Assembly (NCBI GenBank): GCA_035627955.1
Contig: DASPKU010000006.1
Coordinates: 124,001-188,000 of the forward strand
From: Phycisphaerales bacterium
Lineage (GTDB): Bacteria; Planctomycetota; Phycisphaerae; Phycisphaerales; UBA1924
Length of the DNA: 64,000 bases
Direction: 5' to 3'
Shown here: positions 19,670 through 23,793 of the stretch, piece after piece
Position numbering within the stretch: position 1 is the stretch's first letter
Layout of the letters: each line of letters begins with the position of its first letter
Translations under genes and position numbers: made by a program
Notes under the pieces: generated by a model
What the model saw: the letters and a program-made list of their open reading frames with translations, nothing else
What the model was told of the DNA's origin: nothing
The model's database searches: none

Positions 19670-21787
19670 TCAGGCGAGCGGGCGCAGCACGGCCCGCACG
19701 GGGCTCCCGTCGAAGCCCATGAGCTTGAGCGGCGCGGCGATCAGCTCGTACTCCCCGGGGGCGACGCTCTGGAGGTCGAGCCCTTCGAGGATTGCGATGC
19801 CCTGCTTGAGAATGGCCTTGTGGGCGGGCAGGTCCTTGGAGTCCTGAAGGTCGACGCTGGGGGTGTCGATGCCGATGGTGCGGACGCCTTTCGCCGCGAG
19901 GGCCTCGACGAGCTCGACCGAGAGGGCCGCGAAGTCGGAGTTCCAGGACTCGAAGCTCGGAAAGGTGCCGGTGCGGATGAGCACGCGCGGGTGGCGGATG
20001 GCATCGAGGCCGGTGCAGTGCTGGGGTAGGACGCGCTGGGCGCTGGGTGTGGTCGCGGCAATGACGTGACAGGGGCCGATGTAGTGGTCCAGCGGCATCT
20101 CGCCGACGCTGGGAGCCTTGTCGCCGTAGTGGTTGGGACCGTCCGCGTGAGCGCCGAGGTGAACGGTGGTGCGGAGCGTGGAGAGCGTGATGTTGTCGCC
20201 GCGCGAGATGTCGCAGAGGACCTCGCGCGAGGGGCAGGTGTCGCCGGGCCAGACGTTGGTGGTCGGGGTGATGGCGGGGGTGATGTCGATGAGCCGCTTG
20301 TCGCCGCTGGATGAGCCGCCGCCTGCGAGCACGCGCCCGGCCACCTCGGCGACGCGTGACCGCCAGTTCGCGTCGCCGAGCGTTTCGATCGAGCCGCGCG
20401 GCACCTCACGGATGACGGCGTCCAGCACCCGGTCGAGCTCGCGACCGCGCTGGCGGGCCTGCGCGTAGGGCACGGTCGAGAAGCTCACGAGGTTGTACTG
20501 CGGCGTGACGGTGCCCAGGTGCGCGTGGTGCACGGCCTGCTCCACCTTCTTGCGGTAGACGAAGTCGGGCTGCCCGGTCTTGTCTCGCATCTCGACGAAG
20601 TTCTCGACCGCCATGTCGGCGATGGCGTCGGCGTTGGGCTTGCGATCCGCCTGGTACGCGCTGAGCGCGCCGGTGAAGTCCCAGCGGTTGCCGCTTCGCT
20701 CGGGCGGGTGCTCGCGCAAACAGCGGGAGAGCGCGGTGCAGTCCTCGAACGCGGCGTTCATGCCCTGGCCGTAGAAGGGCACGATGGCGTGCGCGGCGTC
20801 CCCGAGCAGCGCCACCCGGCCTCCGTGCTGCCAGGGCCAGCAGCGGACGGTGACGAGCGAACTCGTCGGGTTGCGGGTGTAGTCCTCAACGAGCGTTGGC
20901 ATCAGCGGCACGGCGTCGGGGTAGTGCTCGCGGAAGTGCCGCTCGATGTCGGGGGGGGTCCGCAGGTTCTCGAAGGAGTGGGGGCCCTTGAAGGGCCAGA
21001 AGAGCGTGCAGGTGAAGGAGCCGTCGCGGTTTGGGAGCGCGATCATCATGGACTGGCCGCGGGGCCAGATGTGGAGGGCGTGGGGTTCCATGGCGAAGGA
21101 GGAAGACTCCACCGCGGAGTTGGCGGAGGGGGCGGAGGTGCGCGGAGCGGAGTTTGGAGCGGGCGGGATGTGGAGTTCTTTGTAGCCGTGCTCGAGGTAG
21201 GACTGGCTGTACTCGAAGCGGTCGGTCTTCTGGAGCCGGCCGCGGACCCCACTGAAGGCGCCGTCGGCGCCGATGATCAGGTCGGCCTCAACGCGCGTGA
21301 TCGAACCGTCGGGCTTCTGGAAGATGGCCGCAGGCGCGGGCGAGTCCAGGTCCACGTCGATGCAGAAGTGGTCGAACGTGAGCGACACGCTGCGGTGCTC
21401 GGCCGCGGCCTTGATGAGGGTCAGGTTCAGCCCGCCGCGGGAGACGGAGTTGATGGCGTCCTTGGGATCGTGCGAGTAGGGCAGGAAGTAGGTGGGGGTG
21501 GTGCTGTTGGGCGGGCCGGGCGGGTGGATCATGCGGCCGGGCATGCGGATGGCGTCGCTGCGCATCACCCGCTCGTCGAGCCCGGCGCCCGCCAGGCCGG
21601 CGATGCCGCGGGCAGAGAGGGCGAGGTTGATGGACCGGCCGCCGGCGTAGCCGTGGGCGCGCGGGTCGGAGCGGCGCTCGAACAGCGACACGCGATAGCC
21701 CTCGCGGGCGAGGTAGCAGGCCATGAGCGCGCCGGCGAGACCCGCGCCGGCGATGAGCACGTGGATGTCGGCGTTTGAGCGACCCAT
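19670..21787 (-). CDS. Bifunctional kynurenine 3-monooxygenase / kynurenine formamidase fusion
   Basis: 705 residues holding two complete enzymes. Residues about 1-490 are an FAD-dependent kynurenine 3-monooxygenase: GAGLAGALMACYLAREGYRVSLFERR binds the nucleotide, GRSINLALSARG and LLGDAAHAIVPFYGQGMNAAFEDC are family signatures. Residues about 498-705 are a KynB-type metal-dependent N-formylkynurenine formamidase: WPGDT, the H-x3-H-x-D-x3-H site in HLGAHADGPNH (H543, H547, D549, H553), H656 and E668 in HKAILKQGIAILEG, and the ending YELIAAPLKLMGFDGSPVRAVLR. The formamidase makes kynurenine, which the monooxygenase then hydroxylates. One intact frame joins them, with no internal start needed. 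GTG 21823, touching the upstream stop, is an alternative start. A Ser-Ala-rich insert interrupts the first domain near 21111-21154. Confidence 0.93.
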   Translation of the reverse strand: MGRSNADIHVLIAGAGLAGALMACYLAREGYRVSLFERRSDPRAHGYAGGRSINLALSARGIAGLAGAGLDERVMRSDAIRMPGRMIHPPGPPNSTTPTYFLPYSHDPKDAINSVSRGGLNLTLIKAAAEHRSVSLTFDHFCIDVDLDSPAPAAIFQKPDGSITRVEADLIIGADGAFSGVRGRLQKTDRFEYSQSYLEHGYKELHIPPAPNSAPRTSAPSANSAVESSSFAMEPHALHIWPRGQSMMIALPNRDGSFTCTLFWPFKGPHSFENLRTPPDIERHFREHYPDAVPLMPTLVEDYTRNPTSSLVTVRCWPWQHGGRVALLGDAAHAIVPFYGQGMNAAFEDCTALSRCLREHPPERSGNRWDFTGALSAYQADRKPNADAIADMAVENFVEMRDKTGQPDFVYRKKVEQAVHHAHLGTVTPQYNLVSFSTVPYAQARQRGRELDRVLDAVIREVPRGSIETLGDANWRSRVAEVAGRVLAGGGSSSGDKRLIDITPAITPTTNVWPGDTCPSREVLCDISRGDNITLSTLRTTVHLGAHADGPNHYGDKAPSVGEMPLDHYIGPCHVIAATTPSAQRVLPQHCTGLDAIRHPRVLIRTGTFPSFESWNSDFAALSVELVEALAAKGVRTIGIDTPSVDLQDSKDLPAHKAILKQGIAILEGLDLQSVAPGEYELIAAPLKLMGFDGSPVRAVLRPLA
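21111..21154 (-). repeat. Degenerate CTCCGC repeat inside the kynurenine monooxygenase domain
   Basis: On the coding strand CTCCGC occurs five times in 44 bases, three of them nine bases apart. It encodes an N-S-A-P / T-S-A-P / S-A-N-S-A run between 'YKELHIPP' and 'MEPHALHIWPRG', where bacterial KMO proteins normally have only a few residues. It is in frame. Confidence 0.5.
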
Positions 21788-21823
21788 GGGTGGATTGTTG
21801 CCGCGCCGCGGGGCGGCGCTCAC

Positions 21824-22432
21824 CTACCGCACGCGGACGATCTCGACGGTCTCGGCGCCCGGGTTCCAGAGTGCGTAGCGGGGCTCGTCGATGCCGTCGC
21901 GCCCCCGCCCGACCGCGCCGACGCAGATGGCGTACCGGCGTGCCGCGTCGAGCGTGACGGGCTCGCCGTACTCGAACGGGACGACGAGCGCCTCGTCGCC
22001 ATCGCTGGCGAAGATCGCCGGGATGTGGATGTGACCAACGAAGCACAGGCGCTGGCGCGTGCCGCGGAAGAGCTGCGCGGCGTCGCGCAGGTCGCGCACG
22101 CCGCGTGCCCCCGCCACCGGCGAGATATGGGTGAACAGCACGTCGCCCTCGCGGAGCTCGCGGGGCATGCTGCGCAGGAACTGGTCCTCGGGCGAGCCCT
22201 CGGGCAGGTCGCACATCAGGTCGCAGTTGCCTAGCACGCTGGGCACGCCCCTCCGCAGCAGCTCCGTCAGCACGGGAGCGCCGCCGCGCCAATCGTCCAC
22301 GTTGTCGCCGAGGCTGATGATGCGGCTGATGCCGCGGCGGTCGATGTCGGCGAGCACGGCCTGGAGCCGGGGAAGGTCGCCGTGCGCGTCGGAAATGATG
22401 GCGGTGGGGGTGTTATTGATCGGAGGCGTCAC
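21824..22432 (-). CDS. Metallophosphoesterase (YfcE-like) in the kynurenine operon
   Basis: 202-aa calcineurin-like phosphoesterase. The metal-binding motifs are all present: SDAHGD (D-x-H), SLGDNVDD (G-D), LGNCD (GN-x-D) and FVGHIHIP (G-H-x-H). Such proteins cut phosphodiesters or phosphomonoesters; the natural substrate is unknown. The start codon overlaps the kynureninase stop by four bases (ATGA), and the stop touches the following KMO-KynB region, so the three are one transcript. Its presence in the middle of a tryptophan-degradation operon is not explained by the pathway. Confidence 0.9.
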   Translation of the reverse strand: MTPPINNTPTAIISDAHGDLPRLQAVLADIDRRGISRIISLGDNVDDWRGGAPVLTELLRRGVPSVLGNCDLMCDLPEGSPEDQFLRSMPRELREGDVLFTHISPVAGARGVRDLRDAAQLFRGTRQRLCFVGHIHIPAIFASDGDEALVVPFEYGEPVTLDAARRYAICVGAVGRGRDGIDEPRYALWNPGAETVEIVRVR

Positions 22433-23724
22433 AGCACCCTCTTCAGCACCTGCACGAGCTCCCAGCAGTCACGGTAACTGACGTAGAGCGGGGCGGGGGC
22501 GACGCGGACCACGTTCGGCTCGCGGAAGTCGACGACAACGCCCTGGGCGTGCATGCGCTTCTCGAAGTCGCGGGTGGCGCCGCTGACGGCGAGCGAGAGC
22601 TGCGCCCCGCGCTGCTCCCTCTCCCGCGGCGTGATGATCTGCACCTTGCCGGGCAGCTCGCGTGTGATGAGCCACTCGAGGTAGCCGGTGATCTTCTCGC
22701 TCTTCTCGCGGAGGGCACCCATGCCGACGCGGTCGAAGATCTGCATGGACGCCTTCACGGGGGCGAGGGCCATGATGGGCGGGTTGCTGAGCTGCCAGGC
22801 CTCGGCGCTCTGCATGGGCTCGATGGTGGGCCTCATCTGGAAGCGGGTGGCGGGCTGTGTGCCCCACCAGCCTTCGAATCGGGGGAGCGAAGAGCCGCCG
22901 CGGAGCGGCGGGGTACCCGGTACCTTGAAGTGACGTTCGTGGACGAATGCGCCCGCTACGGCACCGGGGCCGCTGTTGAGGTACTTGTACGTGCACCACG
23001 CGGCGAAGTCGACGCCCCAGTCGTGCAGCTTCATAGGCACATTGCCCGCGGCGTGGGCGAGGTCCCAGCCGACGGTGCAGCCGCGCTCTTTCGCGGCCGC
23101 GGTGATCCGCTGCATGTCGAACCACTGGCCCGTCAGGTAGTTCACGGCGCCCAGCATCACCAGCGCGACCTGCTGCCCCTGCTCCCACAGGAAGGCCTCG
23201 ATGTCGCTGGTGCGGAGGGTGTGCTCGCCGTCTCGCGGACGCAGGCGGATCAGACCGTCCTTAGGGTCGATGCCGTGGAACCGCAGCTGGCTTGCGACCG
23301 CGTAGCTGTCGGAGGGGAACGCGGTGTCCTCGATCACGATTTTGTAGCGTTCGCTGGTGGGCCTGAAGAACGACACCATCAGGAGGTGCAGGTTGGTGGT
23401 GAGACTGTTCATCATCACGCACTCACCGGGCACGCCGCCGACGAGCCTGGCCGCGGGCTCGCGGAACCATTCGTGGTAGGGCAGCCACGGGTCGCGCCCG
23501 TGCAGGTGGGCCCCCACGCCCAGCCGAGCCCAGTCCTCGAGTTCCTGCTCGAGCAGTGCACGCGTCGCCATGGGCTGGCACCCCAGCGAGTTGCCCGTCA
23601 TGTAGACGCACGGACGCGACGGGTCCTTGGCGCTGGGCGGGATGTGGAAGAGCCCGCGGCACTCCTGCAGCGGATCGGCGGCGTCGAGTGAGGAGGCGAA
23701 GGCTTCGTCGGAGCGAAATTCCAT
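22429..23724 (-). CDS. kynU: Kynureninase
   Basis: 431-aa PLP enzyme splitting kynurenine or 3-hydroxykynurenine into alanine and anthranilate or 3-hydroxyanthranilate. Conserved features are YMTGNSLG near the N-terminus, NSLTTNLHLL, the aspartate in GWDLAHAAGN, and the PLP lysine in CTYKYLNSGPG (K247). SNPPI and a C-terminal VRVAPAPLYVS fit the family. Residues about 268-279 (VPGTPPLRGGSS) are an extra segment relative to bacterial homologues, which run from VHERH almost directly to LPRFAGWWG; it is encoded by a palindromic repeat at 22894-22918. ATG 23724 is preferred to GTG 23742 because TATCCT lies exactly six bases before it. First gene of the operon kynU - phosphoesterase - KMO/KynB. 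Confidence 0.95.
   Translation of the reverse strand: MEFRSDEAFASSLDAADPLQECRGLFHIPPSAKDPSRPCVYMTGNSLGCQPMATRALLEQELEDWARLGVGAHLHGRDPWLPYHEWFREPAARLVGGVPGECVMMNSLTTNLHLLMVSFFRPTSERYKIVIEDTAFPSDSYAVASQLRFHGIDPKDGLIRLRPRDGEHTLRTSDIEAFLWEQGQQVALVMLGAVNYLTGQWFDMQRITAAAKERGCTVGWDLAHAAGNVPMKLHDWGVDFAAWCTYKYLNSGPGAVAGAFVHERHFKVPGTPPLRGGSSLPRFEGWWGTQPATRFQMRPTIEPMQSAEAWQLSNPPIMALAPVKASMQIFDRVGMGALREKSEKITGYLEWLITRELPGKVQIITPREREQRGAQLSLAVSGATRDFEKRMHAQGVVVDFREPNVVRVAPAPLYVSYRDCWELVQVLKRVL
22894..22918. repeat. Palindromic repeat copy inside kynureninase
   Basis: The 23-base core CGCCGCGGAGCGGCGGGGTA plus CCC (22896-22918) is identical to 63071-63093 and matches the complement of 32226-32248 at 22 of 23 positions. 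CCGCCGC and GCGGCGG form a 7-bp stem with loop GGA. Here it is translated, in frame, as part of an extra loop. Confidence 0.75.
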
Positions 23725-23730
23725 GGGTGC

Positions 23731-23736
23731 AGGATA
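23731..23736 (-). promoter_or_regulatory. -10-like TATCCT six bases before kynU
   Basis: TATCCT on the minus strand matches the -10 consensus at four of six positions and ends six bases before ATG 23724. No Shine-Dalgarno sequence is visible, so a leaderless transcript is likely. No good -35 was found. Confidence 0.4.
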
Positions 23737-23793
23737 AGGCACACGGCCTTGAAGCGAGGCCGTCAGCAGTCCCGCAGGTCCTGCTACACCCGG

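Follow-up and report, generated by a model that had tools for sequence, protein, structure and literature searches.

The locus described here raises the question whether one long open frame in the genome of a Phycisphaerales bacterium, which an earlier sequence-only reading had interpreted as kynurenine 3-monooxygenase (KMO) joined to kynurenine formamidase (KynB), really encodes two complete and consecutive enzymes in a single chain, and, if it does, where such a gene came from and what the joining achieves. The frame lies in a stretch of 64,000 nucleotides that was analysed as a whole and is called the window below.

The fusion gene and its two domains

The gene is read on the minus strand, which the earlier reading had not named, from an ATG at 21787 and continues as one open frame of 705 codons up to a stop codon at 19670-19672 (Table 1); a GTG at 21823, located right behind the stop of the upstream gene, offers an alternative start that would extend the frame to 717 codons.

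Table 1. Coordinates of the fusion gene, its parts and the neighbouring genes in the window.
Feature	Position	Strand	Remarks
KMO-KynB fusion gene, 705 aa	19670..21787	-	possible GTG start at 21823 (717 aa)
KMO part, residues 9-456	20420..21763	-	5fn0 match; substrate residues R85, Y104, N396, Y431
KMO C-terminal helical stretch, residues 441-487	20327..20467	-	
variable linker, residues 488-497	20297..20326	-	pLDDT under 50 at 490-496
KynB formamidase domain, residues 498-705	19673..20296	-	H543, H547, D549, H553, H656, E668; S644
metallophosphoesterase gene between kynU and fusion	21824..22432	-	
kynureninase gene kynU, upstream of fusion	22429..23742	-	TIGR01814

The N-terminal part matches the KMO of P. 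fluorescens (5fn0) with E 7e-83, scores over the Pfam cut-off of PF01494 and, in the predicted structure, is assigned by Foldseek to 6foy with TMt 0.89. According to PMC6376250, the kynurenine carboxylate is contacted in P. fluorescens KMO by R84, Y98, N369 and Y404, which correspond in the 5fn0 alignment to R85, Y104, N396 and Y431 of the fusion, and these four are invariant in all 24 fused genomes, the window's included. No KMO-named model was found among the best 25 of the 70 NCBIfam families that match the protein, and the top FAD-family model within these 25 is VioC, at 180.1 bits against a cut-off of 760. The fold and the substrate residues are common to the fusion and to known KMO proteins (P. 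fluorescens 5fn0/6foy and rat 6lkd); however, the C-terminal KynB domain is present only in the fusion, which also lacks the predicted membrane helix of mammalian KMO and of many unfused relatives.

The C-terminal part (residues 499-704) matches the KynB of B. cenocepacia (4cog) with E 1.4e-48, likewise exceeds the cut-off of its Pfam family (PF04199), and is placed by fold with 4cog at TMt 0.92, while the NCBIfam arylformamidase model TIGR03035 aligns over its full length (profile positions 1-206 of 206) at 197.8 bits, which is under its cut-off of 223.05. The ligand residues H50, H54, D56, H60, H161 and E173 of BaKynB, as well as its S149 (PMC4243253), are equivalent to H543, H547, D549, H553, H656, E668 and S644 in the fusion, with the numbers assigned by motif and spacing rather than by direct alignment. 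All 24 fused genomes, again with the window's included, share these residues and D646 without variation, and the active-site tryptophan, W513, is retained in 21 of them. In its six ligand residues, S644 and W513 the fusion resembles the bacterial KynB proteins (4cog, 4cob; PMC4243253), which differ from it in being separate proteins of just over 200 residues and not the C-terminal part of a 705-residue chain.

The comparison with relatives, the conserved active sites and the predicted structure support the view that two complete consecutive enzymes are truly fused. The earlier reading of a complete FAD monooxygenase, followed after about residue 497 by a complete KynB, is thereby borne out for both domains, and the single frame of 705 codons that joins them was also confirmed by its uninterrupted recurrence in related genomes.

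Distribution and origin of the fusion

Full-length matches without interruption were found in 24 of the 163 genomes of the window's family, counting the window's own, and a match of any kind in 89 of the 163. Among the matches listed from 400 genomes of the order these 24 are the sole fused cases, and no fusion outside the family was found among the matches listed either there (down to E near 4e-132) or for 392 genomes of the phylum (down to E near 2e-29), two samples that share genomes and in which at most two candidates were scored per genome, so that weak or distant fusions could escape. Plasmids yielded 69 matching records out of 72,556, none of which matched over 80% of the query, and no fusion was listed among them. 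Five genomes of the order (G391, G053, G063, G361 and G399) encode both parts in a shared frame that a single stop divides. A scan of named contigs matched 511 stretches and revealed 24 fused genes among the best 80 loci, 20 of them under titles that name Phycisphaerales, Phycisphaerae or Phycisphaeraceae; these named loci (L) overlap with the surveyed genomes (G) and the two samples are not independent. The genome titles of L097, L123 and L173 (Verrucomicrobia, Leptolyngbya and Kuenenia, respectively) are at odds with their KMO genes, which probably reflects wrong names or mixed bins. The matches listed for the 24 fused genomes (to about 1e-4) include no second hit to KMO or KynB that is stronger than E 1.9e-8, and for this reason the fused gene seems, as far as sequence matches tell, to provide all KMO and KynB activity of these genomes, with an unrelated formamidase being possible.

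When 81 loci were compared (80 named loci and the window), 25 proved to be fused; in 27 kynB adjoins kmo, in six the two are separated by one in-frame stop, in 13 kynB is more distant or lies on the opposite strand, and ten are without kynB nearby. Thus, kynB lies directly behind kmo in 33 of the 56 unfused named loci (27 adjacent and six behind one stop). The unfused Phycisphaerales in which kmo and kynB are neighbours, often with kynU upstream, have the same genes in the same order and on the same strand as in the fusion, but each of the two genes has its own stop and start where the fusion has a single frame.

A joint tree of KMO and KynB was calculated for 46 of the 81 loci, all loci without a nearby KynB and many membrane-tailed ones having been left out by choice. 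On these 46 rows the fused state needs three changes, compared to a mean of 15.4 after shuffling (0 of 500 shuffles were as low), and a branch with 87/92 support unites the 25 fused rows with three split ones. The fused rows form a single clade in 0% of 200 bootstraps, across which three to four changes are needed, and the well-supported branches force at least two. This tree is most simply read as one fusion followed by two re-splits (L122; L123 with L125). In L123 and L125, which belong to a group that is otherwise fused, kmo and kynB are split and their stop and start overlap as GTGA; the two loci probably represent a re-split fusion. In the tree of KMO only (86 rows), seven changes of the fused state are needed and at least three are forced, and the unfused loci L124 and L132, both without kynB nearby and absent from the joint tree, branch within the fused group.

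Several independent fusions of adjacent genes, as opposed to one fusion with re-splits, would agree with the number of changes in the KMO-only tree and with those forced in the joint one, and the position of L124 and L132 makes several fusions, or else more losses, possible. Against this, the three changes in the joint tree are readable as one gain and two losses, and every fused genome among the matches listed belongs to one family, and we regard repeated fusion as rather unlikely, if worth keeping in mind. A single origin appears likely from these sequence comparisons: the fusion would have arisen, probably a single time, when neighbouring kmo and kynB genes lost the stop between them, and it may have been split again on at least two occasions.

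The unfused relatives differ also in the C-terminal tail of KMO, which at the position of residues 441-487 is either similarly soluble or a predicted membrane helix. Eukaryotic KMO ends in a C-terminal membrane helix, and the same is predicted for many planctomycete KMO proteins. With a 19-residue C-terminal hydropathy of at least 2.0 as the criterion for a membrane tail (the inter-domain stretch being scored in fused proteins), such a tail is predicted in 0 of 25 fused loci and in 31 of the 56 unfused named loci, or in 30 of the 56 by the threshold alone, since L138, whose sequence holds Ns and whose hydropathy is 1.05, was set as membrane-tailed by hand. Another 18 loci from the order and phylum gave 16 scorable tails, of which 11 reach 2.0; the position of the tail could not be established in L085 and L090. 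Membrane-tailed KMO proteins are predicted among the unfused named loci in L117-L119, L121, L128, L134, L137, L139, L144, L146-L149, L151, L153, L154, L156, L158, L160-L162, L164-L166, L168-L171, L173 and L174, and among the further loci in L077, L078, L083, L084, L086-L089 and L092-L094.

In a branch of 34 rows that contains every fused row, the tail is soluble in eight of the nine unfused rows, which suggests that soluble tails probably preceded the fusion, and the KMO of the ancestral lineage would then have been soluble-tailed already. In mammalian KMO the C-terminal anchor is reported to be essential for activity, for the pig enzyme in PMC6376250 and for the human one in PMC3969302. One could imagine that KynB took the place of the membrane anchor, in that the tail turned soluble and a dimeric formamidase became attached, resulting in a soluble, obligately dimeric two-step enzyme whose KynB both feeds and stabilises KMO, but we regard this as a long shot.

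The joined chain: tether, channel or two products

The sequence-only reading had proposed that the fusion would channel kynurenine. An evolved channel, with kynurenine handed directly from KynB to KMO, would suit two steps that are consecutive and whose genes adjoin in many unfused relatives, but the analysis gave it no support and we consider it improbable. The linker (residues 488-497) has no invariant site in the aligned fused rows, and between residue 441 and the KynB motif the fused proteins differ in length, with 53 to 74 residues. A comparison of 25 fused with 21 unfused rows yielded no fused-specific conserved residue in either domain. A docking surface was sought as sites at least 92% identical among the fused rows but under 40% identical among the unfused ones, or with these roles exchanged, and was rejected because no site reached these thresholds; the test is weak, the fused rows being kin. 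The predicted structure of the whole protein has a mean pLDDT of 87.4 and a pTM of 0.67, and the mutual arrangement of the two domains in this model is uncertain; besides, two lineages have apparently split the gene again. Because fused-only residues are missing, the linker is variable and re-splits are apparent, a simple tether is favoured, and the fusion looks more like such a tether than like a channelling machine. The linker may act as a flexible tether, and the fusion would serve mainly to supply both enzymes in equal amounts and close together, not to form a sealed channel. As described in PMC4243253, separate KynB is a dimer in which the partner subunit contributes to the active site, and for this reason the KynB dimer would make the fusion at least dimeric.

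It has also to be considered whether KynB is made additionally or mainly as a separate protein, through internal initiation or proteolysis, so that the fusion would chiefly reflect how the genes are arranged. Of the 25 fused genes, 17 have one or more ATG, GTG or TTG codons ahead of the KynB motif, and in the window's fusion GTG occurs at -18 and -14 with respect to the motif, the latter with GAGG upstream. However, in the other eight of the 25 the region that starts 25 codons ahead of the motif and reaches two codons into it is free of all three codons, and no internal start position common to all 25 was found, which led to rejection of a shared internal start for KynB and leaves the production of a separate protein with only a slim chance of being correct. 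Chance was rejected as well, as the frame is present in 23 further genomes of the family at 57-68% identity. Finally, a single sequencing or assembly error could in principle have merged two ordinary neighbours, because unfused kmo and kynB commonly stand side by side with ends that overlap or with one in-frame stop between them, but the uninterrupted frame in 24 of the 163 family genomes, with linkers that differ in the 23 further ones, rules out an assembly error to the point where its probability is negligible.

Gene neighbourhood, pathway and significance

The kynureninase gene located two genes upstream was correctly recognised in the earlier reading: its product scores 421.6 bits with TIGR01814 (cut-off 246.4), and a metallophosphoesterase gene lies in between, overlapping kynU by 4 nt and ending 36 nt before the ATG of the fusion. 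A kynU gene precedes the fusion on the same strand in 17 of the 25 fused loci, and the stretch examined in the other eight revealed none; nothing that matches the window's metallophosphoesterase was detected in the surroundings examined for KMO in the 80 named loci. It also holds, as had been stated, that tryptophan dioxygenase (TDO) and 3-hydroxyanthranilate dioxygenase (HAO) are not near: their best matches are on contigs C11 and C3, respectively, and the window is on C6. Together with NadA (C7), NadB (C23) and QPRTase (C15), the genome encodes both the kynurenine and the aspartate route to quinolinate. On C19 (L177:8659-10053, minus strand) it has a second, distant tryptophan-dioxygenase-like protein directly behind a tryptophanyl-tRNA synthetase gene, and on C3 the HAO gene (L175:9527-10828, plus strand) is followed at once by a gene for an anthranilate/aminodeoxychorismate synthase glutaminase.

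The pathway was surveyed in 60 chosen genomes, 51 with and nine without a KMO or KynB match. HAO is present in 50 of the 51 genomes with a match and absent from all nine without one, NadA is missing in eight of the 51 and present in all nine, and TDO is found in 55 of all 60. The 20 fused genomes surveyed contain HAO in 19 cases, NadA in 18 and TDO in 20, with one fused genome, G036, having neither an HAO nor a NadA match. The genomes without a NadA match are G012, G007, G022, G074, G140, G216, G206 and G036, some of which are nearly complete, and they perhaps make quinolinate via kynurenine only. The pattern of genes fits a kynurenine route to quinolinate, which some members may use in place of the aspartate route.

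It is very probable, judging from the genes and their conserved residues, that the fusion gene yields one soluble bifunctional polypeptide leading from formylkynurenine through kynurenine to 3-hydroxykynurenine, with both activities present. The C-terminal KynB domain would hydrolyse N-formylkynurenine to kynurenine and formate, and the N-terminal FAD domain would hydroxylate kynurenine to 3-hydroxykynurenine, which kynureninase from the upstream gene would cleave to 3-hydroxyanthranilate. This product would pass to 3-hydroxyanthranilate dioxygenase, whose gene lies elsewhere in the genome, and so enter quinolinate and NAD synthesis or the breakdown of tryptophan. No earlier report of a KMO-KynB fusion was found in the literature searched, a weak negative since most subscription journals were outside its scope; in the available parts of two papers, no such report was found in PMC11136935 and the word 'fusion' occurs solely in the reference list of PMC4217691. 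Gene fusion of consecutive enzymes is a well-known kind of event, of which the KMO-KynB case is a new variant.

The fusion is real, conserved and probably bifunctional, and is known so far from one planctomycete family. It provides genomic evidence that kmo and kynB cooperate in planctomycetes, as well as a natural case for testing the channelling of kynurenine. In addition, it is predicted to be soluble and is thus of interest as a relative of mammalian KMO, an enzyme that, according to PMC6376250, is hard to express owing to its membrane binding. The relatives form a graded series, from membrane-tailed KMO beside kynB, to soluble-tailed KMO beside kynB, to a single in-frame stop, to the fusion and to the apparent re-split, which makes it possible to trace the birth and loss of a bifunctional enzyme.
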